A DNA stretch of 53,116 nucleotides from Acidobacteriaceae bacterium. GTDB taxonomy: Bacteria; Acidobacteriota; Terriglobia; Terriglobales; Acidobacteriaceae. The notes under the pieces were generated by a model. It had not been told where the DNA came from and did not search any database. It saw only the letters and a list, made by a program, of their open reading frames with translations. The stretch spans positions 1 through 53,116 of the forward strand of contig JASHQH010000242.1 in NCBI GenBank assembly GCA_030037635.1, given 5' to 3'. Of the stretch, positions 8,192 to 24,803 are shown piece by piece. How positions within the stretch are numbered: the stretch's first letter is position 1; each line of letters begins with the position of its first letter. The position numbers and the translations under genes are program-made.

Positions 8192-9635
8192 ATTTTTCCA
8201 TGCGCCGGTAGAGCGCGGCGCGGCTCAAACCCAGCGATTCCGCAGCTTGCGAGATGTTGCCATCGCAACGTCGCAGCACTTTGCGGATGAGCATAGCTTC
8301 CATTTCGTCGATGCTCATATTATCGAGCGGCATCGCCGCCGGGCGCGCGGCGCCAATAGAAAGATTGGCCGGCTCGATCTCCTCGCCGCTGCAAAGAAGC
8401 AGGGCTCGCTCGATGCTGTGTTCCAATTCACGCACGTTGCCCGGCCAAACATATTGCATCATCAACTGTATCGCGCCTGCCGAAAAGCCATTCACCTGCT
8501 TGCGATAACGCGTGCGCAGCCGGGAGAGAAAATGTTGCGCCAGCAGCGGAATATCTTCGCGCCGGTCGCGTAGCGGTGGCAGGTGAATCTCAACGGTATT
8601 GATGCGGAAGAGCAAGTCTTCGCGGAAATTGCCTGCCTTGACCTCCTCATGCAGCTGGGCATTGGTGGCACAAAGAAGGCGTGCGTCAACCCGCCGGGTT
8701 TGCGACGATCCAACCCGTTCCAGTTCGCCCGTTTCCAGGACGCGCAGCAATTTGGATTGCTGGCGCAGCGGTACGTTGGCAATTTCGTCAAGAAAGAGGG
8801 TCCCTCCATTGGCTAGTTCGAAACGTCCCACGCGGTCAGTGCGAGCATCGGTGAAGGCGCCCTTGACGTGGCCGAAAAACTCGCTTTCAAAAGTCCCTTC
8901 GGGCAGTCCGCCGGCGTTCACCGTCACTAGCGGCATGCGAGCACGCGGCGAGGCGCCATGAAGGAGACGCGCGACGATTTCTTTGCCCGTGCCGTGTTCT
9001 CCGGTGATGAGCACGTTCGCTTCGGAAGGGCCGACTCGCGCGATCACTTCCAGGACAGGCCGCATTGTGGGAGCGGAAGCAATAAACTCGGGCATGCCTT
9101 CGGCGCGGAGCAGGCGGTTTTCGAGTTCCAGCTGGCGGGCGCGGCGCAGCGCCTGGCGCAGCTCAGCGTGAACGCGGATGAGGGTGACCAGCCGCTCGTT
9201 CTCCCAGGGCTTTTGGATAAAGTCGCGTGCGCCGCGCTTGATGCACTCGACGGCGAGGCCGATGTTGCCCCACGCCGTCATCACGATGACGGGAATATGC
9301 GAATCGAACTCCTGGATGTTGCCCAGCAGATCGAGGCCTTCCTGGCCGGAGGTCGTGTCCCGGGTGTAATTCAAGTCGATCAGCACAACATCATAGTCGC
9401 GCTCACCGAGCGCTTCCATCAATAAATGCGGCGAGCGCACGCAGTCGACATCGATTCCCTGTGGTTTGAGCAGTAGCTCCACCGCTTCGAGAACGTGCGG
9501 CTGGTCGTCGGCAACCAACACACGAATTTTGTCTTGCTTACTGGAAATGGCACGCCTCCACGAGCCCCGATTTAGCGCTGGCGATGGCGCCTGCTGATTC
9601 GACCACTCGTCCGGCTTTTGCTCACTCTGCATCAT
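8181..9635 (-). CDS. NtrC-family sigma-54-dependent response regulator (GAFTDA variant)
   Basis: This 484-residue regulator has an N-terminal receiver (residues 37-155; VADDQ, phospho-acceptor D87 in VLIDLNY, T120, K142), a AAA+ sigma-54 interaction domain and a Fis-type helix-turn-helix (ISQAAESLGLSRAALYRRM) at the end. Walker A is GEHGTGKE (212-219) and Walker B GGTLFLDEI (277-285). The loop that contacts sigma-54 reads GAFTDA (259-264) instead of GAFTGA. The receiver carries the insert NYTRDTTSGQEGLD, typical of a subfamily that neighbours MacB-like ABC transporters. I start at ATG 9635 because GGAAGG lies eight bases upstream; the frame stays open to 9686. It probably activates this operon from sigma-54 promoters. 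Confidence 0.9.
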   Translation of the reverse strand: MMQSEQKPDEWSNQQAPSPALNRGSWRRAISSKQDKIRVLVADDQPHVLEAVELLLKPQGIDVDCVRSPHLLMEALGERDYDVVLIDLNYTRDTTSGQEGLDLLGNIQEFDSHIPVIVMTAWGNIGLAVECIKRGARDFIQKPWENERLVTLIRVHAELRQALRRARQLELENRLLRAEGMPEFIASAPTMRPVLEVIARVGPSEANVLITGEHGTGKEIVARLLHGASPRARMPLVTVNAGGLPEGTFESEFFGHVKGAFTDARTDRVGRFELANGGTLFLDEIANVPLRQQSKLLRVLETGELERVGSSQTRRVDARLLCATNAQLHEEVKAGNFREDLLFRINTVEIHLPPLRDRREDIPLLAQHFLSRLRTRYRKQVNGFSAGAIQLMMQYVWPGNVRELEHSIERALLLCSGEEIEPANLSIGAARPAAMPLDNMSIDEMEAMLIRKVLRRCDGNISQAAESLGLSRAALYRRMEKYGL

Positions 9636-9716
9636 AACCAATGCCTTCCGGTTTAGCGCAGCTTCTTCATTCTGGATGGGCCGCATTGCGTCAAAACACT
9701 TGATGGCCTGGGTGAT

Positions 9717-11786
9717 CTACGGCCCGTGCGACACGACTCCTGCCTTCGCGTCGTCGATCGAAACCCCGGTTTGCTCGAGTGTCTCTCCGGTGGCCCTGTC
9801 AATGTCGACCTTTGCCTTCTCAAAGGCTGTCTGTGCGGCCACAAGAAGCGATTCGGCAAGCGACAGGTCATGCTGAGCCGCCAAAGTATCACTGCTGGAC
9901 TTGGCCCCAAGCTGCTGCTCCTGCTGCGTGACTTCGAAGGTATGTTGTGCCAGGTCGCGAGCCTTCGTCGCAGCATCGACACGCGCCTGCGCCTGCTGCA
10001 GCGCAAACAGCGAGTTCCGCACGTCGAAGCGGATGCTTTTCTTTTGCTCCTCGAAGGTGATCTGACGCTGCCTGAATTCCAGCGAGGCGCGGAATTGATC
10101 GGCCTTGGCAACGCGGTTGCGAAGGTTGATCGACAGGTTCATTCCGAACTGATATTCCGGCGAAGAGTAATTGAATGTGTTCTCGAACATGCTGCCGAAC
10201 CCCGTGGGCAAATCAGATGTGCAGTCGGCGGCTCCCAGGTCGCAGTTCGGGTTCTTCGGTCCCGCGATACCGGCGCCGGCATAGAAGCCGTAGAGGTTTA
10301 ACGTGGGCAATAGCTCACTTCTGATCGATTTGAGGCTCATCTCGGCTACCTGCATGGCGAGCTCGTCCTGGGTGACGTCAGGCCGGTTCTTCTCGGCTTC
10401 GGTAATGAGAGCATCAATCGATTTAGAAGCGTTGGGGTCGGGGGGGCCGGCGCGATCCAGGGGAATCACCGGCATCTCGTCGATCGCCTCGTCGTCCGTT
10501 TTGGTGAGTGCGTTCTTGATAAGAAGCTCGTTGAGTCGCAGATTGGCGCGGGAAACCGTGAGGTCGCCTTCGCTGGTAGCCACGTCCGACTCGTCCTTGT
10601 CGACCTGCATAGCTGGAATGGCCTGCAGTTGGAGCTGCTTCTGGTCATCCTGAAGCGTGCGCTGCGCAAAGGTCAGGGAGCGCTCCTTGACCTGTTCGTC
10701 CTGATAGGCGTTCACAAGATCCCAATAAATATTCTCCACCTGCGTGACGGTCGCAATCACTTGCGCGCGAAACGCCAGATCAGTGATCTGGAGATTCTTC
10801 TTGGCGATGTGCATGTAGCGTTCATTGGTGGAGATGCCAAAACCTGCGAGCAGCTGCTGGGTAAGCATGAATTGGAAATTCGAGTAGAGCGAAGGGTTGA
10901 TGGCTTCGTAAGGACTGTTATTGGCGTATCTTTGCCCCTCGTAGTTGACGGTCACGCCTGTTCCCAACGGAAAGTTCTGGGTATAGTTTGCGAGCGCCTC
11001 GATGGTGTTTTGCTTGAAGGTCAGAATGCCATAGCTAAAGGCGTTGCCCTGTTGCGCGACGTAGTGGTCGTCGAAGGCCTTGAAGTTCAGGAAAGGATCG
11101 AAGGGAGCGACAGCAGTTCCGGCGCCGAGCGTCGAGGTGACGATGCCGCCGGCACCGGCAGCCGCTGAGCCCGAGCTGGCGCCCCCGGAACTGACGCCGC
11201 CGCTGGAGAATCCTCCCTGTGTGGACGACTGCACGACTGAAGTATTGACGCCGTTCACACTCCCGCCTGCCTTGGTGCGTGCGTAGTCGGTTTGCGCAAT
11301 CGGGAAGTTATAGCGGAAGTAAGCCAGATCGAGGTTGTTTTCGATTGCAAGGGCGATGGCATCGTGCAGAGAGATGTACAGCTTTCCGTCGCGGATGAGG
11401 TTCTGAAGTCGCGGAGAGTTGGCGAGATCGAGCGGGGGCGCCTCACTGGGTTCGTAGGGCGAGAGCGGGCTGTGCGAGTGGGGAAGCTCCACGTGAAATG
11501 GGCGCTGTGGGGTGATCGCCTGCAGCTGCGTCTGCTGCATCTGCTGGGCCAGCGTAGGAGGCGGCGATGCAGCGTCGTTCGCGGCCGGCGCCGGGGCCTC
11601 TGGTGCCGGTTCTGCCGCCGGTGAGCTTGCCGGCGCAGATTGCGCTTGTGGAGGCTGGGCCGCGAAGGCCAGGTTCACCGGCACGAGCAGAATCGCTGCC
11701 ATGGCCTGAAGGCTTGAAAGAGCCCAATTGCGGAAGTGGGAATTCATGCGTGTCTCTCGAACCGATGGGGTGAGTTTGTTGTTCAC
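9717..11786 (-). CDS. TolC-family outer-membrane efflux protein
   Basis: The 689-residue protein has a signal sequence (hydrophobic SSLQAMAAILLVPVNLAFA, cleavage near AFA-AQ), a Pro/Ala-rich linker of about 40 residues, and the two repeated outer-membrane efflux (OEP) domains that trimerise into a beta-barrel plus periplasmic alpha-helical tunnel. Long helices with heptad pattern occur around ATVTQVENIYWDLVNAYQD and FEEQKKSIRFDVRNSLFALQQAQARV (shown in parts). A Gly/Ser-rich insertion (about residues 190-225, SSGGVSSGGASSGSAAAG) is unusual against enterobacterial TolC. The first codon is GTG, overlapping the ATPase stop as GTGA; an ATG 13 codons later is an alternative. It should be the exit duct for the transporter encoded by the same operon. 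Confidence 0.87.
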   Translation of the reverse strand: MNNKLTPSVRETRMNSHFRNWALSSLQAMAAILLVPVNLAFAAQPPQAQSAPASSPAAEPAPEAPAPAANDAASPPPTLAQQMQQTQLQAITPQRPFHVELPHSHSPLSPYEPSEAPPLDLANSPRLQNLIRDGKLYISLHDAIALAIENNLDLAYFRYNFPIAQTDYARTKAGGSVNGVNTSVVQSSTQGGFSSGGVSSGGASSGSAAAGAGGIVTSTLGAGTAVAPFDPFLNFKAFDDHYVAQQGNAFSYGILTFKQNTIEALANYTQNFPLGTGVTVNYEGQRYANNSPYEAINPSLYSNFQFMLTQQLLAGFGISTNERYMHIAKKNLQITDLAFRAQVIATVTQVENIYWDLVNAYQDEQVKERSLTFAQRTLQDDQKQLQLQAIPAMQVDKDESDVATSEGDLTVSRANLRLNELLIKNALTKTDDEAIDEMPVIPLDRAGPPDPNASKSIDALITEAEKNRPDVTQDELAMQVAEMSLKSIRSELLPTLNLYGFYAGAGIAGPKNPNCDLGAADCTSDLPTGFGSMFENTFNYSSPEYQFGMNLSINLRNRVAKADQFRASLEFRQRQITFEEQKKSIRFDVRNSLFALQQAQARVDAATKARDLAQHTFEVTQQEQQLGAKSSSDTLAAQHDLSLAESLLVAAQTAFEKAKVDIDRATGETLEQTGVSIDDAKAGVVSHGP

Positions 11787-12481
11787 TTGGCTCCCGTTGC
11801 CGCTGTCTGAAAGGATTCGTCACGTGTGATCCAGCCGTCATGCAATTCCACAATGCGCTGGCCGTAACGCGCATTCTCTTGGGAGTGCGTCACTTGCACA
11901 ATGGTCGTTCCCTGTCGATTGAGTTCGCAAAACATCTGCATGATTTCGCGCCCCTGTGTGGAATGCAGATTGCCGGTAGGCTCGTCGGCGAGAAGCAATG
12001 CGGGAGCATGCACCACGGCACGCGCGATGCCCACCAATTGCTGTTGGCCGCCCGAGAGCTGGCTCGGAAACAGGTCTTTCTTGGCCACGATCTGAAACTT
12101 GTCGAGGATGTCGGCGACCATGCCCTGGCGCTCATTGGACGGAAGGTTCTTGTACGACAGCGGAAGGTCGATGTTTTCCGCGACAGTTAGGTCGTCGAGC
12201 AAGTGGTAGCTTTGAAAGACCATGCCGATGCGCTGGCGGGCCAGATCGGCGCGCTGTTTGCGGTTCAGCGCGTGCACTCCGACGTCGCCGAACCAATATT
12301 CGCCTTTCCAGCCGTCATCAAGCAGAGCCAGGATGTTCAGCAGCGACGACTTTCCGGCCCCCGACGGGCCCATGATGGTGACAAAGTCTCCTTCGCGGAT
12401 AGTGAGTCCGATGCGGCGCAGCACCCAAGTCTCGGTGTAGCCAGCCTTATAACTGCGTTCGACTTGTTTCAGTTCAATCAT
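11783..12481 (-). CDS. ABC transporter ATP-binding protein, MacB/LolD type
   Basis: This 232-residue ATPase has Walker A GPSGAGKS, the Q loop in [18 protein letters not shown], the ABC signature LSGGQQQ, Walker [10 protein letters not shown] and the switch histidine in QVTHSQE. The pattern of L-x-D-L-T-V-x-E-N and N-L-H-S is that of the MacB/LolD/FtsE group. The signature helix continues LVGIARA, where most relatives have RVAIARA. The ATG lies four bases after the stop of the upstream permease gene, so translation is probably coupled. It should energise one or more of the ADOP permeases of the operon by mechanotransmission rather than moving substrate through the membrane. Confidence 0.9.
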
Positions 12482-12485
12482 TTCT

Positions 12486-14945
12486 CTACTCCAATCGCAA
12501 GGCTTGAATAGGGTCCACCTGTATCGCCCGGCGTGCGGGCAGCCAGGCGGCCAGAAATGCGGCAGCCGCAAGCACAACAGCGACTGCGGCGAAAGTGAGG
12601 CTGTCGTGTACCTGAACGCCAAAAATGTAGCTGCGCGCCAGATCCGCGGCAAACCAGGCGATGACCGCGCCGATCGCCAATCCCGCGGCGACCAGCACCA
12701 GAGCGCGATGCAGAACGAGATTGAGGATGTTGGCCTGCGGAGCGCCCAGGGCCATGCGGATGCCGATTTCACGCGTGCGCTGCGCGACTGCGAATGAGAG
12801 CAGTCCATAGAGTCCGACGGAGGCAACCATCAGGGCGATGGCCGCGAAGCTTTCCAGCAGATGTGCGATGAGCGTCTGGCTCCCAAAGGAATCCTCAACC
12901 GCTTCGTGAATTGTTTTGACATCGGTAGTGGTGGCGTCGGGCGCAACCTCGTGCAGCGCCTTGTCGAACTGCGGCCGCAAAGTGTTGGCAGGAACCGAGG
13001 CGCGGATCGCCACTTGGATGAAAGCCAGCGCAATCCCATAGAGCGGCGTTCCCGGCTCAACCTGCGCCAGGCAAAAGTAAACTTCGGGCACTGCAGCATC
13101 GGTAACGCTGCCCTGCTTGGTGTCGCCGATAACGCCGACGATGCGGCTGTTTTCGTAGAAACCTTTGCCCATAGAGTAGATGTGCCCGATGGGATCTTGC
13201 CCGGGCAGGAATTTATTGACGAATGCCTGGTTGACCACGACAACTGGAGGCGCGGAGGCATTATCTTCCTCTGTGAAGAAACGACCCTTCATCGTGGGGA
13301 TTCCCAACGCTTCAGTAAGACCCGCCGAAGCAAGCCGGCCGTCAACAACGGCTGCATCGGCAGCAGAAGTTTTCCTGTGGTCAAGCTCGCCCCAAAGCTT
13401 GACTGCGAATTCAGGGCGGAGCGGAAGCACAGAGCTGAGCGCGGCCACCTGCACGCCGGGTATGGCCTGCACGCGTTCAAGCAGTGGCAGATACATGGTC
13501 TGGACGACGTTGGGCAGTGCCGGCGAGTTGGCTTCGGCTGTGCTGTTGGAGGGATGCAGGATAATGCCGCCCGTGAGCACATTCTGCTGAGTAAAGCCGA
13601 GCGGCACGTGGCGCAGGGCATCGACGGTGCGCAAGAAGAGTCCCGCGCCGGCAAGAAAGACCAGAGTGAGCGCGAGCTGCGCGACCACAAGAGCCTCACG
13701 TGTTCGGTTCTGGGCGGTCGACGCGGTGGTGGTGACGCCGCGCAGCCGCTCGTGCACATCGCGACCAGTGGCGCGCAAAGCCGGCAACACGCCGACGACA
13801 ATGGAAGTGATGCCCGTAAGCAAGACCAGAAAGGCGACGACGCGCCAATCGACGTGGACCGTCCGATAGAGCGGAAGATGACGGCCGAGTTGCCTCCACA
13901 AGAGCTTTATGGCGCCCTCGCCAAGCACCAAACCGGCGATGGTGCCGATTGCCCCCAGAAGTAGGCTTTCAATGAGAGACTGCTCGAGCAGCCGTTTGTG
14001 GCTCGCGCCCAGCGCGGCGCGCACCGCCTGCTCGCGCGTACGCGTGACGGCTCGGGCCAGCATCAGGCTCGTGACATTAAGGCAGGCGAGCGCCCAGACG
14101 CCGAAAACCACCGCGTAGAGGAGCCACAGCGGCCTGCGGGCGTCTTCATTCAGCGACTGTTGATAACTCTTGACTTTGACACGAGTGGGCAAATCTCCGT
14201 CGGGAACTTCCTTGGCGATCACAGCCTGGGCGCGATCGAGCCCTGCCGTAAGCTGCTTGACGCTCATTCCGACGGGCAAACGCGCGATCAGGCTGCCTGT
14301 GACCTCAGAGTCACCGCCCTGCATCGAGGTGCGATTGGCCGAGGTGATTTCGGCCGGGGACCAGATCTGCATCGCCTCGCCAAACGGAAACGAAAAACTT
14401 CGTGGCATCACGCCGATAATCGTGTACGCGTCTCCACGGATAGTTAAAGTCCTGCCCACAATTGCGGGGTCGGCGTCATAGAGCCCGCGCCATACGTCTT
14501 CTCCGATGAGAACCACGCGATTGCGGCCGGGATCGTCCTCCTCTGCGCGGAATGTGCGGCCGAGGATGGGCTGCACGCCAAAGAGCTTCATCAGGCTTGC
14601 GTCGGTCTCGGTGCGCATCACCTGTACGCGCCCCCCTGGTCCAACGACGCTCGCATGGGCGGTGCCAAAGTCCGTGCCGATCTCCATGCCCATTGCATCG
14701 CGTAACTGCAGCATATTGGCATAGCTCATGGCGAAGTAGGGCATGGGGCTGATGAGATCGACGCTGACAATGCGATCCGGGCGCGCGTAAGGCAAAGGGC
14801 GCAGTAGCACTCCGTTAAGAACGGTGAAGACTGCGATATTCGCTCCGAGTCCGAGGGCCAGCACCGCGAGGGCGGCAAAAGTGAACCCCGGCGCGTGTCG
14901 AAGCTGGCGCAGCGCGTAGCGTAAATCCTGGACAAGCGCGTTCAT
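12486..14945 (-). CDS. ADOP-type FtsX/MacB permease (third of operon)
   Basis: The protein (819 residues) starts MNALVQDLRYALRQLRHAPG, the conserved ADOP N-terminus. It has the duplicated MacB layout: a first transmembrane helix, a periplasmic MacB_PCD domain (about 60-245), an FtsX-like three-helix block (about 280-420), then a repeat of the whole arrangement ending PARRAIQVDPIQALRLE. With both halves fused it can replace a MacB dimer. GGGAGGA precedes the ATG at 14945. It is followed after four bases by its probable ATPase gene. The substrate is unknown; family members export antimicrobials, lipids or peptides, or transmit force across the periplasm to partner proteins. Confidence 0.9.
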   Translation of the reverse strand: MNALVQDLRYALRQLRHAPGFTFAALAVLALGLGANIAVFTVLNGVLLRPLPYARPDRIVSVDLISPMPYFAMSYANMLQLRDAMGMEIGTDFGTAHASVVGPGGRVQVMRTETDASLMKLFGVQPILGRTFRAEEDDPGRNRVVLIGEDVWRGLYDADPAIVGRTLTIRGDAYTIIGVMPRSFSFPFGEAMQIWSPAEITSANRTSMQGGDSEVTGSLIARLPVGMSVKQLTAGLDRAQAVIAKEVPDGDLPTRVKVKSYQQSLNEDARRPLWLLYAVVFGVWALACLNVTSLMLARAVTRTREQAVRAALGASHKRLLEQSLIESLLLGAIGTIAGLVLGEGAIKLLWRQLGRHLPLYRTVHVDWRVVAFLVLLTGITSIVVGVLPALRATGRDVHERLRGVTTTASTAQNRTREALVVAQLALTLVFLAGAGLFLRTVDALRHVPLGFTQQNVLTGGIILHPSNSTAEANSPALPNVVQTMYLPLLERVQAIPGVQVAALSSVLPLRPEFAVKLWGELDHRKTSAADAAVVDGRLASAGLTEALGIPTMKGRFFTEEDNASAPPVVVVNQAFVNKFLPGQDPIGHIYSMGKGFYENSRIVGVIGDTKQGSVTDAAVPEVYFCLAQVEPGTPLYGIALAFIQVAIRASVPANTLRPQFDKALHEVAPDATTTDVKTIHEAVEDSFGSQTLIAHLLESFAAIALMVASVGLYGLLSFAVAQRTREIGIRMALGAPQANILNLVLHRALVLVAAGLAIGAVIAWFAADLARSYIFGVQVHDSLTFAAVAVVLAAAAFLAAWLPARRAIQVDPIQALRLE

Positions 14946-14967
14946 TCTGATCCTCCCGGGCGGCGAA

Positions 14968-17532
14968 TTACTCAGTCCGCAATGCCTCCATAGGTTCGAC
15001 AGAAGCCGCACGCCGAGCCGGAATGAAGGCCGCAGCGGCCGCGAAAACCACCAGCAACAACGGTGCTCCGGCCAGGGCCGCCGGATCGTAACTGTTCACG
15101 TTGTAGAGCAGAACCTTCATCAGGTATCCGACATAAAGGGCCGCCGGAATTCCAAACAGAAGGGCAATGAGTATCTGCCAGAGCGCGCCGCGCATCACCA
15201 TGGCGACTACGCTCTGCCGCGTTGCGCCCAGCGCCATGCGAATGCCGATCTCACTGGTGCGGCGAGCCACGAAGTATGACATCACACCGTAAAGGCCAAC
15301 CGATGCGAGCACCAACGCCAGCAAGCCGAAAAGGCCGGTCAGCCGAGCGACAGCGCGCTGTTCGACAAAGTTGCCTGCCACCTGATTGCCGAAGGAGCGA
15401 AGGTCTTGCACCGTCAGATTCGGATCGATGCCGGCGAGTGTATTGCGAACCAGCACATCTACGTTGGGCGGCGACGCATGGAAATCAAGGATTATCGCGT
15501 TTACATACATCGAGCGCGTTTCGGTCCGAATCATGTCCGACTCTGTGTATCCGGTAAACTGCTGTGTCATCGGGCGCAGATAAACGGGGTGCACCCCTTC
15601 GTTCCCATACTGGAGATTCATCTTGAAGTCGCGGAAGATGCCGACGATTTCAAAGCTGCCTGAGTACTTCGGGTAATCGATGCCAAAATGCCGGCCGATG
15701 GGGTCCTGATCGGGAAAGAACTTCTTGGCGAATGCTTGGTTGACGATCGCCACTTGCGGGGATGTGGCCGTATCCTGCTCGCTGATCCCCCGGCCCCGCA
15801 TGACGGGCACGCCAATGGCGTCGAGAAAGTGCGGGTCGACGCGACTCCACGTTGAGTCGCAATCCTCGTCCTGCCGTGGCGCAGGATGCCCCTGCTGGAT
15901 GACGCACTCGCTCCAGTTGTCGCCTTCGAGCGGGCTGTAGAGCGCCAGGCTTGCATTGGCGATGCCCGGCAGAGCCGAGAAACGATCCTGGATCTGGCGA
16001 TAGAGGGCGGGCAGCTTATCGACGGTGTATCCCGCGCCCTGCGGATCGAAATGGGCCACGTAGCGGTTGGCCGTCACAATGCCAAAGTGCTGATTCTGAA
16101 GATTGGTGAGGGTCTTGGTCATCAGAATTGCGCCGGCCAGCAGAACTACCGATAGCGCCGCCTGAAACACAACCAGAGCTTTCTGCGGCAGCGACGAGCG
16201 GTCACGCGTGGTGCGGCTCACGCCGCGCAGCGCCTCGGCCGGTTGCGCATGGAAGGAGAGCCACGCAGGGGCCGCGCCGAAAAGAATGCCGGTGACAACG
16301 GAAACCAAGAGTGCGAAACCCAGCACCGGCAGCGAGGGATTGGCGCTGATGGGCATGTTTCTGGCATCGGGAAAAACCAGAGCCAGAATGGTGCGGCAGC
16401 CGGCGTACGCCACGAGGAGTCCAGCCAGGCCTCCGATGCAGCTCAGAACGACACTCTCACTGAGAATCTCGCGCAAGATGCGACGCTTGCCTGCGCCCAG
16501 GGCGGTTCGCAATGCGATATCGGCCCGTCGTGTGGTGGCGCGCGCCAGCATCAGGTTGGCGATGTTCGCGCAGGCAATGAGCAGCACAAGCGTGGAGAGA
16601 GCCATGAGCATCTTCAGGCCCTCGCCGGCCTGGTTTTGAAGAATCTGGATGCCGCCGCCGCCCGGCGAGAGCACGACGTGCATCCTGGGGACGAGCGCGA
16701 CGCCGCCGTTGGCCATCAAATCCGGTCGCGACCGGAGCCATTGCTGCAGGGCGACCGTAAGTTTGCTCTGCAATGCGGCGATATTGGTGCCTGCTCGCAC
16801 TCTGCCCAGCGGATAGAGCCAGTTTGACTCGGCGTTGTTGAGAATCGCGTCTCCGGCTTCCACGTAAGGCTCGGTATGGATCGGCATCCAGAAGTTAGGT
16901 GGCGCGTCGGTGACGCGATCACCAAAAAAGCCAGGCGGCGCGATGCCGACGACGGTGAAGGGCTTGGCCTGTACATATAGGGTCGAGCCGACGATTGACG
17001 GATCTCCGGAGTACTCGCCCTGCCACGTCGCGTAGCTGAGCACGACCGCCGGAGCAGCGGAAAAAGCATCGTCATTTGAAGAAAAGAGGCGGCCCGCATA
17101 GGCGTTGAGGCCAAGAGTCAAGAAAAAATTCCCCGAGACAAACTGGCCGTGCAGCGATTTTGCCAGTTCGCTTCCGCGCCGTACGCTCCACTGCCAAATT
17201 CCGGCCTGGGTGGCGGCAAGCTGCTCAAATTCAGGAGCCGATTGCTGGAGGTGCTGATACAAATCGTAGGAGAAGATCGAAATGTCGCCGGTTTCCGGAG
17301 CATCTTCGGGAAAGGCGCCGTCGACGCAGCACTGGTTTTTGTCGCCGATACGGTAGAGTTGCGCGGAATCGGCAACGGGGAGCGAGCGTAGCAGGATGGC
17401 GTGGACCAGCGTGAAAATGGCAGTGGTCGCGCCGATGCCCAGCGCCAGCGTGGCCACGACCGTGGTCGTGAAACCAGGTGACTTGCGCAACTGGCGCAGC
17501 GCGTAGCGCAGATCGTGAATGAGAGCATTCAT
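14968..17532 (-). CDS. ADOP-type FtsX/MacB permease (second of operon)
   Basis: This 854-residue duplicate MacB-type permease starts MNALIHDLRYALRQLRKSPG and ends PARRAASVEPMEALRTE. GAGGAGGT lies upstream of the ATG at 17532. It has the two MacB_PCD periplasmic domains and two FtsX blocks; the first FtsX block contains ACANIANLMLARATTRRADIALRTALGAG in pieces. Four cysteines in the first periplasmic domain (KNQCC near residue 70) and in ECVIQQG and DEDCDST could form disulfides outside the membrane. It is 22 bases from the next permease gene. It is more like the flanking permeases in architecture than in sequence, so distinct substrates or hetero-oligomers are possible. Confidence 0.9.
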   Translation of the reverse strand: MNALIHDLRYALRQLRKSPGFTTTVVATLALGIGATTAIFTLVHAILLRSLPVADSAQLYRIGDKNQCCVDGAFPEDAPETGDISIFSYDLYQHLQQSAPEFEQLAATQAGIWQWSVRRGSELAKSLHGQFVSGNFFLTLGLNAYAGRLFSSNDDAFSAAPAVVLSYATWQGEYSGDPSIVGSTLYVQAKPFTVVGIAPPGFFGDRVTDAPPNFWMPIHTEPYVEAGDAILNNAESNWLYPLGRVRAGTNIAALQSKLTVALQQWLRSRPDLMANGGVALVPRMHVVLSPGGGGIQILQNQAGEGLKMLMALSTLVLLIACANIANLMLARATTRRADIALRTALGAGKRRILREILSESVVLSCIGGLAGLLVAYAGCRTILALVFPDARNMPISANPSLPVLGFALLVSVVTGILFGAAPAWLSFHAQPAEALRGVSRTTRDRSSLPQKALVVFQAALSVVLLAGAILMTKTLTNLQNQHFGIVTANRYVAHFDPQGAGYTVDKLPALYRQIQDRFSALPGIANASLALYSPLEGDNWSECVIQQGHPAPRQDEDCDSTWSRVDPHFLDAIGVPVMRGRGISEQDTATSPQVAIVNQAFAKKFFPDQDPIGRHFGIDYPKYSGSFEIVGIFRDFKMNLQYGNEGVHPVYLRPMTQQFTGYTESDMIRTETRSMYVNAIILDFHASPPNVDVLVRNTLAGIDPNLTVQDLRSFGNQVAGNFVEQRAVARLTGLFGLLALVLASVGLYGVMSYFVARRTSEIGIRMALGATRQSVVAMVMRGALWQILIALLFGIPAALYVGYLMKVLLYNVNSYDPAALAGAPLLLVVFAAAAAFIPARRAASVEPMEALRTE

Positions 17533-17551
17533 TCGCGTACCTCCTCGAGGA

Positions 17552-19987
17552 TTATTCCGTGCGCAAGGCCTGCATCGGATCGGTGGATGCGGCACGGAGC
17601 GCCGGGATAAGCGCGGCCAGCAGTCCCGCGGCGACAAGCAGGACTGCAATCAGGACAAGGTAACCCGCTTCCTTTTGCGTATCGAAATAGATGACGACGC
17701 TGATGAGCTTGCGAGCAGCTACTGCCAGCGCCAATCCCCCAACCGCTCCCACGCCCAGCATCCATGCCACTCGCTGCAGCACCAGCGTGAGAATCGACGG
17801 GCGCGTTGCTCCCAGTGCCATGCGGACGCCGATGTCGCGGGCTGCAAGTTCCACCTCGCGGCTTACTAGCCCGTAGAGGCCGACCAGCGCCAGCACCAGC
17901 GCCAGCGCGGCGAAGATTCCAAACAGCCAGCTTTCGAGCCGGTTGAAGATCAGCGCCTCGGAAACAACATCGCTCATGGAGCGCGGATCGGTGAACGGAA
18001 CCGTGGGATCGAGTTCGTGCACGGCGGAGCGCAACGCGTTCACCACCAGCATTGGGTTACCGGACGTTCTCACCAGCAGATACATGTTGGCGAACAGCGC
18101 GCTGCTCAGATTCTGCGGTATCTCGCTCATCAGCCAATCGCGCTCGGCGAGCGGCGGCAAGTAAATGCTCTGGCGTACATTGCCTACCACGCCAACGATC
18201 TCGGTCCATTTCTCCTGCTCGTTGTTGTCATCGAGCCGTTGCGCGATCGGGTCAAGGCCGTTGGGAATGAACTTGCGCACGAAAGCATCGTTCACCACGA
18301 TGGTGGGCGCGACATTGTCAGGGCGGTCGAGGGCTGGCGCAAGATAGCGGCCGCGATGCAGCGGGATCCCCATCACCTCGAAGTACCCGGGGCTGGCGAT
18401 GCGGTTTTCCGCCAGCATCTCCTGGTTGGGTGGATACGGCGGCTGCCCGGCGATATGAATATCGGAGTTGCTGCCATACTGCTCGATGGGCAGCAGATTG
18501 ATGAAGCCAGCAGCCTTGACTCCCGGCAAGTGGCTTACCCGTTCCTCAAGCGGGCGGTAAAAATCAGCCAGAATATCGTGCCCCTGATAACGGACCGTGG
18601 AAAGATCGATGCGGACCGCGAGGATGTGCGCGGGATCGAATCCGAGATCGGCGTGGCGAAAGTATGAAACCACGCGCAACAGCATTCCTGCCACTACCAG
18701 CAGCACCAGCGTGAGCGCCACCTGCGTCACCACGAATCCCGAGCGCAAACGATTCTGGGCGCGCCCGGTTCCGGCGCCTTGGCCGGCCTTGAGCGCACGA
18801 TTCGGATCGACGCCCGAAAGCCGCAGCGCCGGCAACACAGCAGCAGCAAGCGTGACTATGATGGAGGCGCTGATGGCGGCGGCAAGCACGGCCCAGTTGA
18901 GATGAATGTCGGCTCCGCGCTCCAGCGCCTTGATGAGAAAGGCGCCCATCGCGCTGAGCATCAGATCGGCCACCAGCACACCCCCGCCCGCACCAAGCAG
19001 AGCCAGCAGCAATCCTTCCATTAGTAATTGACGGACAAGTTGCCCGCGCCCCGCGCCGATGGCCGTCCGCACTGCCATCTCCCGCTCGCGCTTGACACCG
19101 CGGGCCAACAGCAGCCCGGCCACATTCACGCAGCCAATGGCCAGCACCGCCAGCACCGCGCCCAATAGAGTCCACAGCGGACCCTTGCTCTGGCTGGTCA
19201 CGCTTTCGGCGAGCAGTTTCAATTTCACCGTGCGTCCCTGATCGGTGCTCGCATAGGCGCGGCCAAGATCGGCGAATACATGCGACAGCTCAGCCTGTGC
19301 CTGTTCGATGGTCACGCCAGGCTTGAGGCGGGCGACAGTCTGCAGCCAGTGGTTGCCGCGGCCGTTCATCCACCATTGGTCAAGATGGATGGGCGTGTAC
19401 ACACCGTTGTGCGTGCTGAGCGGAAAACGGAAACCGGCCGGCATCACACCAACCACGGTGTAAGAGCGGCCGTCCGCCGTTACAGATTTGTTGATGATGT
19501 CGGGGTTGCCGGCAAAGTAGTTTTTCCACACCTCGTAGCTCAGCACCAGGATGTTGTTCCGCCCCTCCTGATCCTCGCCCGGCAAAAACGCGCGGCCCAG
19601 AAGCGGCGGCACGTCAAAAACCTGGAAAAAGTTGTCGGTGCCGCGAACCTCGGGAAACTCGACCGGGCCGTTCGATGGCGTCAGGATGGAGACGAAGTCG
19701 TAGTTGGTGTAGCCCGCCAGTGCGGAGAAGTCGTGCGCCTGCGCGCGTTCATCCTGGTAGCTCGGCCATGACGGCGGCTGGGTGTAGTTGCTGCGGCTCT
19801 GGCTTTGAACATCGACGATCCGTTCTGGATGCGAGTAGGGCAACGGGCGCAGAATCACGTTGTCGATGACGCAGAAGACCGCCGTAGCAATGCCCACGCT
19901 GAGCGCGAGAGTGAAGGTGACCGTGAACGTAAAGCCCGGTGTCCGGCGCAACTGGCGCAGCGCGTACCGCAGATCACGGAGCGTCAT
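17552..19987 (-). CDS. ADOP-type FtsX/MacB permease (first of operon)
   Basis: The product has 811 residues, MTLRDLRYALRQLRRTPG at the start and PALRAASTDPMQALRTE at the end, with the duplicated MacB_PCD/FtsX layout. The start codon overlaps the stop of the preceding ATPase gene as ATGA, which argues for a stable ATPase-permease pair. Hydrophobic blocks lie near residues 18-40, 270-300, 325-350 and 365-390, and again in the last 130 residues. As with its neighbours, the mechanism should be ATP-driven movement of the periplasmic domains, working with the adaptor and the TolC-like protein; substrate unknown. Confidence 0.9.
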   Translation of the reverse strand: MTLRDLRYALRQLRRTPGFTFTVTFTLALSVGIATAVFCVIDNVILRPLPYSHPERIVDVQSQSRSNYTQPPSWPSYQDERAQAHDFSALAGYTNYDFVSILTPSNGPVEFPEVRGTDNFFQVFDVPPLLGRAFLPGEDQEGRNNILVLSYEVWKNYFAGNPDIINKSVTADGRSYTVVGVMPAGFRFPLSTHNGVYTPIHLDQWWMNGRGNHWLQTVARLKPGVTIEQAQAELSHVFADLGRAYASTDQGRTVKLKLLAESVTSQSKGPLWTLLGAVLAVLAIGCVNVAGLLLARGVKREREMAVRTAIGAGRGQLVRQLLMEGLLLALLGAGGGVLVADLMLSAMGAFLIKALERGADIHLNWAVLAAAISASIIVTLAAAVLPALRLSGVDPNRALKAGQGAGTGRAQNRLRSGFVVTQVALTLVLLVVAGMLLRVVSYFRHADLGFDPAHILAVRIDLSTVRYQGHDILADFYRPLEERVSHLPGVKAAGFINLLPIEQYGSNSDIHIAGQPPYPPNQEMLAENRIASPGYFEVMGIPLHRGRYLAPALDRPDNVAPTIVVNDAFVRKFIPNGLDPIAQRLDDNNEQEKWTEIVGVVGNVRQSIYLPPLAERDWLMSEIPQNLSSALFANMYLLVRTSGNPMLVVNALRSAVHELDPTVPFTDPRSMSDVVSEALIFNRLESWLFGIFAALALVLALVGLYGLVSREVELAARDIGVRMALGATRPSILTLVLQRVAWMLGVGAVGGLALAVAARKLISVVIYFDTQKEAGYLVLIAVLLVAAGLLAALIPALRAASTDPMQALRTE

Positions 19988-20712
19988 GATTCGGCCTCTG
20001 CCTCTTCCTCGAGATTCTTCATCTCCTGCTCGCTGACGACCTTGCCGTCGAACAAATGCAGCTCGCGTTCGGCGTGGCGCGCAAATCGCGGATCGTGGGT
20101 CACCATGCAGATGGTCGAGCCCTCGCGGTGCAGGTCGCCGAGCAGCCGCATCACCGCCTCACCGTTCTTCGAGTCCAGGTTGCCGGTGGGTTCGTCGGCC
20201 AGCAGGATCGAGGGCGAGCCGGCCAGTGCGCGCGCCACGGCCACGCGCTGCTGCTGGCCGCCCGAAAGCTGCGCCGGATAGTGCCTCATACGATGGGCCA
20301 TGTTCACGCGTTCCAGCGCTTCCTTTACTCGCCTTTTCCGCTCCGCCGAGGGCATTCCGGCGCGATAAGTGAGCGGCAATTCAACGTTCTCTTCAACAGT
20401 GAGATCGCCAATCAGGTTGAAGCTTTGAAAAATGAAACCGATCTCCTGGTTGCGGATTCGCGAGCGCTCGCTGAAGCTCAAATTCTCTACCGGCTTGCCG
20501 TTCAGCTGGTAGCGGCCGCCGGTAGGTGTATCGAGGAGGCCGAGAATCGAAAGCAGCGTGGACTTGCCGCAACCGGACGGTCCCGACATGGCCACGTACT
20601 CGCCCCGTTTGATGGTCAGGTGAATGCCGGAGAGCGCGTGCGTCTCCACTTCGTCGGTGTAGAAGATTTTGGTAAGATCTTCAATCTCAATCAGTGTTCC
20701 ATTCGATGCCAT
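19984..20712 (-). CDS. ABC transporter ATP-binding protein, MacB/LolD type
   Basis: This 242-residue ATPase has Walker A GPSGCGKS, the Q loop IGFIFQSFNLIGDLTVEENV, signature LSGGQQQRVAVARAL, Walker [13 protein letters not shown] and switch histidine MVTHDPRFA. All catalytic residues are present. The C-terminus carries an acidic tail (EQEMKNLEEEAEAES). AGGAGAAGG precedes the ATG. It overlaps the first ADOP permease gene by four bases and follows the adaptor gene after a 110-base gap, giving the classical MacA-MacB-like order. The second ATPase gene of the operon differs clearly in sequence, so the two are not a recent duplication. Confidence 0.92.
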   Translation of the reverse strand: MASNGTLIEIEDLTKIFYTDEVETHALSGIHLTIKRGEYVAMSGPSGCGKSTLLSILGLLDTPTGGRYQLNGKPVENLSFSERSRIRNQEIGFIFQSFNLIGDLTVEENVELPLTYRAGMPSAERKRRVKEALERVNMAHRMRHYPAQLSGGQQQRVAVARALAGSPSILLADEPTGNLDSKNGEAVMRLLGDLHREGSTICMVTHDPRFARHAERELHLFDGKVVSEQEMKNLEEEAEAES

Positions 20713-20822
20713 TGCCTTCTCCTGCAGTTCTCAGTTCTTGGTTCACGGTTCTCAGCCGGTAATTCGTGGTTCGTCGCCGTTCATCCGCAATCCACGCGGT
20801 GGACTGCGAAATTGCGCCACTC

Positions 20823-22091
20823 CTAATCCAGCCGTATGCGATCCACGTTGTCCCAACGCGACATATCCGAAAGGATCACTGTGTCGCCTTCCTTCAAGCC
20901 CTCGATCACTTGAATCTCGTTCACTGAAGCGCGGCCGACCTTGACCGAAACGCGCGTGGCGCCCTTGCCATCGGGATCGACCTTAAACAAACTCAGTGTG
21001 GAGTCCTCGTTGCCCAGCGCCGGCCGGCCCACATAGAGCACATCCTTCATGCGCTCCAGGTCAATGGTGCCGTCGACGCTCAACTGCGGAACCGCACCCG
21101 GCGGCAACGGCCCATCCAGTTCTACGTCTACGGTGCGCGTTCCGTTCACTACCGAGGGATCGATGCGCGTGACATGGCCAGGAATAACTCCATTGTGCGT
21201 GTCGATCGTGGCCGGTTGGCCGATTTGGATGTCGCGCGCCTGCGTCTCTGCAATCTGCAGGGCGGCCTTCAGCTTATCGCGCTGGATAACCTCGGCCACG
21301 CTCGTTCCTGCGGTCACGTGCTCGCCTACCTGCACCGGCGTGGCCAATGGCGCCAGTGTTCCTGTAATGGTAGAGCGCACCTGGAGCGCCTGCGCCTGCT
21401 TTTCATACAGGTCGAGCAATGCTTGGGCCTGGTCGATCTTGGTTTGCTGCGAGGCAAGCTGCACTACGATCGCCTTCTGATTCACATCGAGCTGCTGCTG
21501 GCTGAGCTGCTCCTGCGTGGTCAACTGGTCGGCCGTGCTCTTCGACTTCTGGTAGGCCAGGCCCGAGATAACGCCCAGGTCGTAAAGCGCTTTGTCGGTC
21601 TGCGCCTGCAGCTGGTCCTGTGTGTAGTTGGCATTCACTTCCGCTGCGGCAGTCTTCTTGTCCATCAACGTGCTGTCAAGCTGCGCCTGCAGGCTCTTGT
21701 AGTCGGCTTGGGCCGCCTTGAGCTGCAGCCGCGCGTTCAACAACTCCTGCTCAAGCTGCGGGTCGTCGAGATCCATAATGATGGTGTTGGGGGTGACCTG
21801 AGCTCCGGGCAGGATGCGAATGCGCACCACGGTCGCGTCGGTCTGGGCCGGGATTAATTCGATAGAATCCTCGCGCGGCGCCAGCACCCCGGTTGACGAG
21901 CGCACCTGGCGCACCAGCGGGCCGCGCTTTACCGTGTCGGTCCAGATGGTGGAACGATCCACTTCGGGCGCTGCTGGCTTCAGACGCATCACGATCACAG
22001 CAAGGGCCGCAACGGCCAGCACTGCAGCGCCAGACCAGAGCAGCGTCCGGCGCATCTTCTTCTGCTTAATATCAGGGCGGGCGATATCCAT
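20823..22091 (-). CDS. Periplasmic adaptor (HlyD/MacA-like membrane fusion protein)
   Basis: The 422-residue protein has a short basic N-terminus (MDIARPDIKQKKMRR), one membrane helix (about 13-34), a lipoyl-like beta domain, and a long alpha-hairpin with clear heptads (about 110-230: NARLQLKAAQADYKSLQAQL, then DVNQKAIVVQLASQQTKIDQA). The second lipoyl half, a beta-barrel domain (AALQIAETQARDIQIGQPATI) and a membrane-proximal domain follow. It should join the ABC components to the TolC-like duct. I start at ATG 22091 because MDI-R is a common beginning in this family. It is the promoter-proximal gene of the nine-gene operon and has the candidate sigma-54 promoter directly before it. Confidence 0.88.
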   Translation of the reverse strand: MDIARPDIKQKKMRRTLLWSGAAVLAVAALAVIVMRLKPAAPEVDRSTIWTDTVKRGPLVRQVRSSTGVLAPREDSIELIPAQTDATVVRIRILPGAQVTPNTIIMDLDDPQLEQELLNARLQLKAAQADYKSLQAQLDSTLMDKKTAAAEVNANYTQDQLQAQTDKALYDLGVISGLAYQKSKSTADQLTTQEQLSQQQLDVNQKAIVVQLASQQTKIDQAQALLDLYEKQAQALQVRSTITGTLAPLATPVQVGEHVTAGTSVAEVIQRDKLKAALQIAETQARDIQIGQPATIDTHNGVIPGHVTRIDPSVVNGTRTVDVELDGPLPPGAVPQLSVDGTIDLERMKDVLYVGRPALGNEDSTLSLFKVDPDGKGATRVSVKVGRASVNEIQVIEGLKEGDTVILSDMSRWDNVDRIRLD

Positions 22092-22104
22092 CGCCGAAAT
22101 TGGG

Positions 22105-22121
22105 AGCAAACCGCTCGCCAA
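22105..22121 (-). promoter_or_regulatory. Candidate sigma-54 promoter of the nine-gene operon
   Basis: Read on the minus strand the bases are TTGGCGAGCGGTTTGCT. GG (22119-22118) and GC (22107-22106) are separated by exactly ten bases, and both the -24 TGGC and the -12 TTGC(T) cores match the sigma-54 consensus; only the usual C after TGGCA/G is an A. The predicted start, near 22094, is just before the adaptor ATG, which would make a very short leader. The operon encodes its own sigma-54 activator, which raises the prior for this site. Confidence 0.55.
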
Positions 22122-22213
22122 ACCGACTCCGCGCTGATTCATTGAAAACAAAAAGCTTGACGCGGTCGCGCCGTCGCGGAGAACCGAAAAAATTGACCGC
22201 TTCCGCTCGGCAA

Positions 22214-22231
22214 CTGTTCGATTTCGGACAG
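22214..22231. promoter_or_regulatory. Candidate NtrC-type upstream activator dyad
   Basis: CTGTTCG-ATTT-CGGACAG is an inverted repeat with one mismatch in seven-base arms, centred about 128 bases upstream of the predicted sigma-54 start. This distance is usual for enhancer-like sites of NtrC-family regulators with Fis-type DNA-binding domains. It also lies about 150 bases upstream of the divergent permease gene, so it could serve both. Confidence 0.45.
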
Positions 22232-22373
22232 TCCGTCGCCGGCGTGGGGCTTGGGGGAACCGCGCACGCGCGGCTTGCGTAAACAGGCTCAACGAGCGGC
22301 GCACGAATCCCTGTTAACCATTACCCTGTATGGCCCGTGTTTTTTTCGACAACCCTGAAAGGCGCGACACCAA

Positions 22374-24803
22374 ATGCTCAGCGACCTCAAGTTTGCTTTC
22401 CGGCAATTGCGCAAGTCTCCCGGTTTCGCCCTCACTGCCATCGTTACCCTCGCGCTGGGAATCGGCGCAAATGCCGTGGTGTTCAGCGTTCTGAATGCGC
22501 TCGTGCTGCGGCCGATCAATGTTCCCGGCGCAGAAAACCTCTACATGGTTCAGCGCGCGTGGGACCGCACGCAAACGCCATCGGAGTCGTATCTCGATTA
22601 CATCGACCTGCGCGACCGCAACCGCACCTTCGAAAGCCTCTGCTCGTATTGGATCATCGGCACGGTGGGCGTAGATACCGGCGGGAATCCTTCCACCGCC
22701 TGGCCCTACCTGGCCAGCGGCAATTACTTCGACGCTCTCGGCATTCAACCCTATCTGGGCCGCTTTTTCCACGCGTCCGACGAGAAGGGTATCAACAGTG
22801 CTCCCTACGTGGTCTTGAGTTATGCCTACTGGCACGGCCATTTTCGTCAGGACCCGGCCGTGATCGGCCGCAATGTCGACATCAACAAGCATCCCTTCAC
22901 CATCATTGGCGTGGCGCCGATGGGCTTCCGTGGTACGGAACTCTTCTTTGCGCTCGCGATGTGGATTCCACAGGTCGAGGAACCCACGGTGCAGGGCGAC
23001 AACAATCTGCAATATCGTGGCGATCACTCGCCATGGGTAATTGGGCGCCTCAAGCAGGGAGTTTCACCGGCGGAGGCCACGGCAGACCTGAACGCGATTG
23101 GCGCCTGGCTGGCAAAGACGTATCCCGCAGACGATGCGGGGATTAAATTCAGCCTCGCTCGCCCGGGCCTCGTCGGCGATATGCTCGGCGGACCGGCGAA
23201 GGCATTCATGGCGGGATTAATGCTGCTCGCCGGGCTCATCCTGCTGGCGGCGTGCGCCAATCTCGGCAGCTTGTTCACGGCTCGCGCGGCCGATCGTGCC
23301 AAAGAAGTGGCGGTTCGCTTGGCCCTGGGCTCCCGCCGCGCCACCATCCTCAGGCAACTGCTCACCGAAGCGTTGCTCGTTTCCTTCGTGGGCGGAGTCA
23401 TCGGGCTCGCCGGCAGCATCGTCATTCTGCATTTCGTCAGCGCATGGAACCCCATCTCCAACGTGCCCATTAATGTGCCGGTGAATCCCGACATTCGTAC
23501 TTACGTCGTGGCGCTGCTGCTGGCACTCGTCAGTGGACTCCTTTTTGGCGTTGTGCCGGTCGGCCAGGTCATGCGCTCCGACCCGTGGCAGATCATTCGC
23601 ACTGGATCGTCCGGCGCCGGCGGCATGAAGCGGTTCGCACTGCGTGACGTCCTTCTCGTGGCCCAGATTGCCATCTGTGCCGTTCTGGTCACTTCATCGC
23701 TGGTTGCGGTGCGAGGGCTGGGGCGATCGCTCAGCGGCAACTACGGATTCGTTCCGCAAAACGTAATGCTCGTCGACACTGACCTCCACATGGCAGGGTA
23801 TTCCGGCGACGCTGTTCCCCAAATGCAGCGCCACATGATCGACTCAGCCGCGGCCATTCCGGGTGTCACGGCCGTTGGAAGTACCACCACTGTCCCGTTA
23901 AGTCTCGGCGGCGGCGACTCCGATGTTTTTGCCGACACCACAACCGATTATCGGCCCACCAACTCCGCTGCCGATGCCATGAACTACGACATCTCGCCCG
24001 GATATCTTGAAGCGGCGGGCACGCGGTTGCTGGCGGGCAGAGATTTGAAATTTAGCGACGACAAGAAGGCGCCGACAGTGGCGCTGGTCAACCGTACCTT
24101 CGCAGTGAAGGTTTTTGGATCGGTCCAGCAAGCCATCGGCGGCCATTTCAAGTTCTGGGGCGGAAGCCGCGCGGAAGTCGTGGGCGTGGTGGAAGACGGC
24201 AAGTACCGTACCATGACCGAAGATCAGCAACCCGCGATGTTCTTTTCGTTCCTCCAGCATACCGAGAGCGACACCTACCTCGTTGTCCGGTCGAAGCGCG
24301 ATCCGCAGGAAATGGCCCAGGACCTCAACCGCACCCTGCACGGGCTGGATTCGAGCCTGCCCCTCGTCGTCCGTCCTTGGACCCAGGAGATGGATTCCGC
24401 GCTGTTCGTTTCGCGCGTGGCTACGGTAGCCTTGGGAGTGCTCGGATTTCTCGGCGCCATGCTGGCAGTGACGGGAATCTTCGGCATGGCTTCGTACGTT
24501 GTCAGCAAGCGTCTGCGCGAGCTTGGCATTCGCGTGGCTTTGGGCGCAGGGCAGCGTGAAATCCTGCTTACTGCGTTGGGCCGGGCTTTTCGATTGTTGC
24601 TCGCCGGCTCGGCCGCGGGCGTGGTGCTGGGAGTTCTGGGAACGCGCGTGTTGTCGTTCATCGTTTACCAGGCCACGCCTAAAGATCCGCTGGTGCTCGG
24701 CGGAGTGACTGTGACCATGCTGCTTCTCGGCCTGATGGCATCATGGATTCCGGCGCGCCGCGCCCTGGCCGTGGACCCGCTGATCCTTTTGCGCGACGAG
24801 TGA
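22374..24803 (+). CDS. ADOP-type FtsX/MacB permease (divergent)
   Basis: The 809-residue permease starts MLSDLKFAFRQLRKSPGFAL and ends PARRALAVDPLILLRDE, with the doubled MacB_PCD/FtsX architecture of its neighbours. The first FtsX block has AACANLGSLFTARAADRAKEVAVRLALG in pieces. No ATPase gene follows, so it is a true orphan permease or borrows one of the two ATPases of the divergent operon. It shares the 282-base promoter region with that operon. A sequence TGGCCCG before its start resembles the -24 half of a sigma-54 promoter but lacks the -12 half, so I do not call a promoter for it. Confidence 0.9.
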   Translation: MLSDLKFAFRQLRKSPGFALTAIVTLALGIGANAVVFSVLNALVLRPINVPGAENLYMVQRAWDRTQTPSESYLDYIDLRDRNRTFESLCSYWIIGTVGVDTGGNPSTAWPYLASGNYFDALGIQPYLGRFFHASDEKGINSAPYVVLSYAYWHGHFRQDPAVIGRNVDINKHPFTIIGVAPMGFRGTELFFALAMWIPQVEEPTVQGDNNLQYRGDHSPWVIGRLKQGVSPAEATADLNAIGAWLAKTYPADDAGIKFSLARPGLVGDMLGGPAKAFMAGLMLLAGLILLAACANLGSLFTARAADRAKEVAVRLALGSRRATILRQLLTEALLVSFVGGVIGLAGSIVILHFVSAWNPISNVPINVPVNPDIRTYVVALLLALVSGLLFGVVPVGQVMRSDPWQIIRTGSSGAGGMKRFALRDVLLVAQIAICAVLVTSSLVAVRGLGRSLSGNYGFVPQNVMLVDTDLHMAGYSGDAVPQMQRHMIDSAAAIPGVTAVGSTTTVPLSLGGGDSDVFADTTTDYRPTNSAADAMNYDISPGYLEAAGTRLLAGRDLKFSDDKKAPTVALVNRTFAVKVFGSVQQAIGGHFKFWGGSRAEVVGVVEDGKYRTMTEDQQPAMFFSFLQHTESDTYLVVRSKRDPQEMAQDLNRTLHGLDSSLPLVVRPWTQEMDSALFVSRVATVALGVLGFLGAMLAVTGIFGMASYVVSKRLRELGIRVALGAGQREILLTALGRAFRLLLAGSAAGVVLGVLGTRVLSFIVYQATPKDPLVLGGVTVTMLLLGLMASWIPARRALAVDPLILLRDE

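Follow-up and report, generated by a model that had tools for sequence, protein, structure and literature searches.

Computational analysis of a predicted sigma-54 switch at an export-pump operon of soil Acidobacteria and its putative control by the operon's own sensor-regulator pair

The window analysed here is a stretch of 53,116 nucleotides, contig C329 of a 4.77-Mb Acidobacteriaceae assembly that comprises 352 contigs and is 91% complete. Its near relatives by name are Acidobacteriaceae and other Acidobacteria MAGs; the nearest named relative is isolate bog_373 (adaptor identity 92%), and the isolates among the relatives include Silvibacterium bohemicum and Edaphobacter lichenicola. The window carries a putative operon, entirely on the minus strand, whose first gene encodes an HlyD/MFP periplasmic adaptor (20823-22091; PF13437, PF16576, TIGR01730). 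This is followed by an ABC ATPase (19984-20712; PF00005), three ADOP permeases that all score above the TIGR03434 cut-off of 622.3 bits (17552-19987, 819 bits; 14968-17649, 847 bits; 12486-15011, 753 bits; the starts of the second and third are uncertain), a second ABC ATPase (11783-12484; PF00005; start inferred) and a TolC-like outer-membrane efflux protein (9717-11786; PF02321; start uncertain). The far end is occupied by an NtrC-family response regulator, the predicted activator (8181-9686), and a sensor histidine kinase whose gene overlaps that of the regulator (6839-8191; PF02518, HATPase) and whose HAMP and PAS domains score below the Pfam cut-offs only. A gap of 110 bp (20713-20822) follows the adaptor gene, and the other listed ORFs abut, overlap or lie 30 bp apart, several of their starts being uncertain. 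The long ORF of the second ATPase is matched by the G005 and G002 homologues only from residues 115 and 94, respectively. Adaptor homologues in the genus align from residue 1 and begin at the same MDI residues; in-frame adaptor start codons further upstream were ruled out because these homologues share the start residue.

For comparison, 79 genomes were searched, including the window's own, and 60 of these yielded an adaptor homologue with an E-value of 1e-50 or lower. These 60 genomes provided 61 adaptor upstream stretches (G078 supplied two), with 35 rows derived from 47 same-genus genomes (own included) and 26 rows from other families. The operon order in G005 and G002 was adaptor, ATPase, four or five ADOPs, second ATPase, channel (matched in G005 and not in G002 at the cut-off used), regulator and kinase. 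The operon ATPases of these two genomes are 79-92% identical to those of the window, whereas eight of their nine operon ADOPs are only 28-38% identical to the best window match (one is 70% identical), indicating that the core of the operon is constant and its permeases vary. As a separate observation, the number (3-5) and sequence of the operon ADOPs differ among the three species compared, with the ATPases highly conserved (L225 and L226 versus window positions 12486-19987).

Immediately upstream of the adaptor gene, at 22105-22120 on the minus strand, lies the -24/-12 promoter TGGCGAGCGGTTTGCT, which reads TGGC-N7-TTGCT here. The first-pass annotation had described it as TGGC-N8-TTGCT with GG-N10-GC spacing; the GG-N10-GC is exact, and the spacer is N7 rather than N8. 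The 16-mer has two mismatches to TGGCACGNNNNTTGCW and carries its GG-N10-GC in a TGGCAC-N5-TTGCW context. The pattern TGGC-N7-TTGCW has two exact matches in the window, the other being at 52156, and it arose 40 times when the 282-bp intergenic region was dinucleotide-shuffled 20,000 times. With one mismatch allowed there were 44 matches in the window against 33.6 expected, so that the promoter pattern alone is weak evidence. Among the same-genus orthologues, a GG-N10-GC was present 28-32 bases before the start codon in 35 of 35 (search zone -45 to -16), at -29 in 17, at -30 in 12, at -28 in four, and at -31 and -32 in a single orthologue apiece. A second set, which overlapped the first in part, consisted of 37 loci, of which 35 were examined after exclusion of the partial L212 and L216, and the best GG-N10-GC was at -28 to -32 in 32 of these. 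The three exceptions were L184, L210 and the Gemmatimonadales locus L215; L210 has a copy with three mismatches by eye, and the start of L215 was guessed. L184 is from a near relative and has no promoter at the expected place, which counts against the region being the switch proposed below. The first-pass annotation had named the lack of rpoN as a finding that would overturn a sigma-54 assignment, and the genome has one rpoN match (PF04552, E 5.8e-57). That the promoter is of the sigma-54 type is, as a sequence, near certain.

The dyad CTGTTCG-ATTT-CGGACAG, the predicted regulator binding site, is exact at 22214-22231 and its centre falls near -128, just where it had been placed in the first-pass annotation. 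Its arms differ by one mismatch. When up to two mismatches were allowed, the window held one match against 0.98 expected, and the match found has none; the exact dyad did not arise in any of the 20,000 shuffled versions of the intergenic region. In the same-genus rows, which were searched 86-135 bp before the promoter, the distance from the best dyad to the promoter was 109-113 bp in 34 and 123 bp in the remaining one. This best dyad had no mismatch in six rows, one in 18, two in nine and three in two, i.e., at most two mismatches in 33 of 35. This conservation is, at the level of sequence comparison, stronger proof of the promoter and dyad than the chance statistics. Based on the GG-N10-GC in 35/35 and the 109-113 bp spacing in 34/35, neither element is attributable to chance. 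Inverted repeats occur frequently, and taken alone the promoter pattern is only slightly above chance in the window, as would be expected if the dyad were a repressor or nucleoid-protein site and TGGC...TTGCT a chance match. We consider that explanation highly improbable given the near-fixed spacing, the invariant GG-N10-GC and the paired recurrence of the two elements before other genes, for which the control matches were zero.

A second, degenerate enhancer site is predicted 21 bp downstream of the first (22193-22210, minus strand), with its right half-site CGGTCA at 22199-22194. CGGTCA with at most one mismatch was found downstream of the dyad in 34 of the 35 same-genus rows (exact in 27), at an offset of 20 in 17 rows and of 21 in another 17, which is about two helical turns. 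For NtrC, a separation of roughly two to three turns is typical of paired sites. L206 and L207 also show a pair of sites 20 bp apart. Four Edaphobacter strains (L194-L197) have a strong dyad at about the position of the downstream site, and their upstream site is unrecognisable. Outside the genus the dyad was less regular. Of the 26 adaptor rows from other families, nine had a dyad with at most two mismatches at 108-113 bp and three had one at 91-101 bp; the other 14 showed no clear dyad by this measure, and we count them against the proposed switch. This is a genuine limit of the interpretation for the other families, where either the site has diverged or the regulator works in a different way.

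Setting the C of the GC (22106) as -12 places +1 near 22094, three nucleotides before the ATG at 22091 (predicted leader 22092-22094, minus strand). A leader of only a few bases had been flagged as an oddity. It is conserved: a leader of 2-6 nt is predicted for every one of the 35 same-genus orthologues, 32 of which have a G at -3, and the alignment of the same-genus homologues from residue 1 indicates a conserved feature rather than a mis-called start. Leaders this short are nevertheless unusual, and in a more distant relative, G078, the promoter is at -47 with AGGAGG inside the leader. These points would be accommodated if the -24/-12 motif works and the leader is longer, either with the main transcript arising from another, unseen promoter and the sigma-54 start being secondary, or with the true start codon lying downstream. 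We regard this as unlikely, based on the promoter-ATG distance of 28-32 in 35/35, the G at -3 in 32 of 35, the shared MDI residues and the presence of SD-like 4-mers near the adaptor ATG in just 4 of 35 same-genus rows. Thus the adaptor mRNA is likely near-leaderless from its predicted start, and the longer leader of G078 raises the prospect that the near-leaderless form may be derived. The leaders of the trans members described below are longer, many with GGAGG-like sequences by eye, and among the members seen in the genus the near-leaderless promoter is the adaptor's only.

A further ADOP permease gene (22374-24803, plus strand; TIGR03434 750 bits) diverges from the operon and is not counted in the switch. 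By eye, a decayed promoter-like sequence, TGGCCCG-TGTT-TTTTT, is located at 22331-22346 (plus strand), 117 bp from the dyad; a script scan of the divergent side of the dyad gave no good GG-N10-GC, the best having six mismatches. In relatives L180 and L181 the divergent gene is preceded by a dyad of its own and a sigma-54-like promoter, spaced 87-88 bp apart by hand count, and the same 87-88 bp arrangement was obtained by script for L240. Bidirectional use of the window dyad was not adopted, owing to the degenerate promoter here and to the divergent gene having its own dyad and promoter in these relatives.

The sigma-54 activator that the first-pass annotation had reported at the operon end is present. 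The product of the gene at 8181-9686 has a receiver domain (PF00072), a sigma-54 AAA+ domain (PF00158) and a Fis-type HTH (PF02954), the domain set of the NtrC family. The sigma-54 contact loop motif is GAFTGA. This loop reads GAFTDA in the window protein and in all 29 orthologues read, which counts against the switch, and GAFTDA also occurs in L056, one of the other regulators of this genome. A regulator orthologue, defined by 56% identity or more (three genomes with just 41-47% paralogues were scored absent), was found in 54 of 60 adaptor-positive genomes and in none of the 19 adaptor-negative ones. Six adaptor-positive genomes lacked it, namely G007, G031, G052, G056, G062 and G072. In the first three of these the contig ends soon past the adaptor, so that the missing regulator may be an assembly effect; G007 and G052 keep the dyad, and the G031 dyad has three mismatches. 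G056, G062 and G072, whose listed completeness is 82%, 100% and 100%, respectively, showed no good dyad in the adaptor upstream stretch.

The co-occurrence of pump and regulator, together with the dyad and promoter being kept in the genus, gives good inferential support to the positive feedback loop suggested in the first-pass annotation. We strongly infer from these sequence relationships that the operon's own regulator controls the predicted dyad and promoter. Alternatively, the promoter and dyad could be real and the dyad bound by a different enhancer-binding protein, with the operon regulator controlling something else. Candidates for such a protein exist, as P0002 finds matches with E 1e-20 or better at 12 more places in the genome. 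In addition, binding of the regulator to the dyad is a prediction only, G012 has a site and no detected orthologue, and 11 of the 14 dyad-less rows from other families come from genomes that keep the regulator. Against this, the regulator accompanies the adaptor (54/60 versus 0/19) and matches to the enhancer-promoter pattern are rarer where it is absent (see below). Among the 29 orthologues read, the HTH of the regulator hardly varies, and it differs from the HTHs of the genome's 11 other enhancer-binding proteins for which this domain was at least partly readable. We therefore judge binding by another protein to be quite improbable.

A scan of the genome for further sites, proposed in the first-pass annotation as a check, found four occurrences of the core dyad TGTYCG-N4-CGRACA, compared to one for a reversed-pattern control, and three of the four were paired with a sigma-54 promoter 109-124 bp away. 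One of the three leads the window operon. A second (C123:9450) is 109 bp before TGGCAGCGGAGTTGCA, which is followed by an ADOP gene, and the third (C58:23755) is 124 bp before TGGCAATTGAATTGCT, which is followed by a gene for a 171-aa recombinase-like HTH protein and then an ADOP gene. Both of these trans ADOP targets score above the TIGR03434 cut-off of 622.3 bits. The fourth core dyad, on C112, is inside a coding sequence and has no convincing promoter.

Scans for a composite of dyad, gap and promoter gave 87 matches in the 79 genomes and none for the reversed pattern (39 + 22 with gaps of 82-108 and 10 + 16 with gaps of 52-81; four phylum rows and four duplicates were excluded, and two of the 87, in G046, share one dyad). 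The genes downstream of these matches were the adaptor operon in 34 cases (five assigned by coordinate), ADOP genes in 22, Toastrack genes in 14, recombinase-like HTH genes in seven, outer-membrane channel genes in three and others in seven. Since the adaptor operon served to define the motif, the 34 matches there do not count as independent evidence. Among the 53 matches off the adaptor operon, 25 precede ADOP or channel genes, families known from the operon beforehand, and 21 precede two families that were recognised only through the matches. The remaining seven precede none of these families and are counted against the switch. In the first two scans a composite match was present in 36 of 54 regulator-bearing genomes and in 4 of the 25 others (Fisher p 3e-5, uncorrected for kinship). 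Nine of the 87 matches come from the 25 genomes scored as lacking the regulator: four in G007, two in G052, two in G062 (both before other genes) and one in G012. The G012 match is Toastrack-associated, yet neither regulator nor adaptor was detected in that genome, a further point against the switch.

A narrower pattern with one dyad arm was applied to a phylum sample of 149 genomes, own included, and gave five matches in four genomes, namely this window, an ADOP gene (L255), the adaptor and the channel of G127 (listed as 'same phylum') and one other. Just one of 13 same-family genomes of other genera was matched (L255), which we also count against the switch. At one-arm stringency the enhancer-promoter code is rare across the phylum, and it seems not to be confined to this class.

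The recombinase-like HTH protein (L091:825-1337, minus strand; 171 aa in this genome; weak PF07508) is behind the same enhancer in seven genomes, the other loci being L132, L137-L139, L174 and L178. Its dyad is at 120-124 bp in six of the seven, approximately one helical turn further from the promoter. For the ADOP dyad-promoter spacings (n=22) the Rayleigh test was suggestive at 10.5 bp (p ~7e-4; p 0.04 for the 13 distinct values), with the rows being non-independent. Helical phasing was dropped as evidence, as periods of 11-12 fit at least as well and the rows are not independent. In relatives a Toastrack (DUF4097) protein is behind the same enhancer at 90-93 bp (L227, L228, L231, L238, L239, L243, L244, L248 and L249). 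The Toastrack homologues of this genome were considered as regulon members and rejected, since there was no site within 450 bp of either match, and this too weighs against the switch.

Taken together, we put at roughly 85% the probability that this region governs a positively autoregulated sigma-54 two-component regulon, comprising one tripartite pump and scattered ADOP permeases in trans, with a near-leaderless start. In this scheme the histidine kinase would sense an envelope or efflux-related signal and phosphorylate the NtrC-type regulator, whose dimers would bind the strong dyad at 22214-22231 as well as the weak site located 21 bp closer to the promoter. The bound regulator would then oligomerise, and the DNA would loop over ~110 bp so that the sigma-54 closed complex could be opened at 22105-22120. 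Transcription would begin ~3 nt before the ATG, with the adaptor translated from a near-leaderless mRNA, and a single transcript could extend from the pump genes (adaptor, two ATPases, three ADOP permeases and channel) into the regulator and kinase genes, which would complete the loop. The regulator would also act in trans, activating the further ADOP permeases and the recombinase-like HTH protein and, in relatives, the Toastrack-domain protein. The make-up of the pump and the Toastrack partners in relatives, considered with the accessible part of PMC11237479, suggest that the signal is envelope stress or toxic compounds.

It is possible, though doubtful, that the scattered 'orphan' ADOPs are interchangeable subunits of one tripartite pump, such that one switch raises a constant core together with varying ATPase-less permeases. 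Sharing of the operon ATPases by the trans ADOPs is speculative. If this were true, the shared regulation would widen the range of compounds exported, in the core operon via a fixed near-leaderless sigma-54 mRNA.

With respect to leaderless genes, the strict definition given in the available text of PMC3616915 is a start at the AUG itself, and the predicted 3-nt leader falls outside it. An excerpt of PMC3160421 reports an average of 13.3% predicted leaderless genes in three acidobacterial genomes, which makes such translation plausible in this host. That survey, as excerpted, looked for Pribnow-type (sigma-70) promoters only, and a sigma-54 leaderless case would have escaped it. The leaderless genes described for Campylobacter and Bradyrhizobium in the excerpts of PMC3847290 and PMC4842269 likewise have sigma-70-type boxes. 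Among the open-access papers searched, none dealt with conserved leaderless sigma-54 promoters, judging by title or abstract start. Against these surveys, which link leaderless genes to sigma-70-type boxes, a fixed near-leaderless sigma-54 promoter would be a case joining enhancer-controlled transcription and leaderless translation.

The arrangement resembles NtrC-family enhancers in its -24/-12 promoter, its response-regulator activator and its dyad within the 70-150 bp upstream zone that the accessible part of PMC3844500 quotes for many sigma-54 enhancers; the binding sequence, the near-leaderless start and the ADOP-centred regulon differ. In Desulfovibrio vulgaris, DAP-chip mapping of sigma-54 response regulators gave mostly palindromic sites, with arms of 4-6 bp and spacers of 3-8 bp, and some of these regulators target their own gene or operon (PMC3333781, in part). 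The site here is likewise palindromic and would be self-targeting, but has 7-bp arms and is a predicted motif, and the consulted part of that study holds no like ADOP/efflux operon. In PSP/Lia envelope-stress systems, Toastrack (DUF4097) proteins are found alongside two-component systems and transporters (PMC11237479, accessible part). The link here is a shared enhancer in relatives only, and the two Toastrack homologues of this genome are without a site. The protein in relatives also looks secreted by eye, whereas the same part of PMC11237479 makes the case for an intracellular Toastrack.

Work on ADOP partners and their control seems scarce, as among the open-access papers searched the phrase 'duplicated orphan permease' was found solely in a species description. 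No paper on a sigma-54 regulon of ADOP genes was found there by title or abstract start. The three operon permeases, the divergent gene and the two trans targets all match TIGR03434 above its cut-off. The model is silent on regulation or partners, whereas scattered members here appear to share a switch with the operon that supplies ATPases, adaptor and channel. The enhancer-promoter code could help to catalogue the ADOPs that operate jointly, along with the ATPase and channel they work with, and it supplies a named regulator and a motif that are open to testing.
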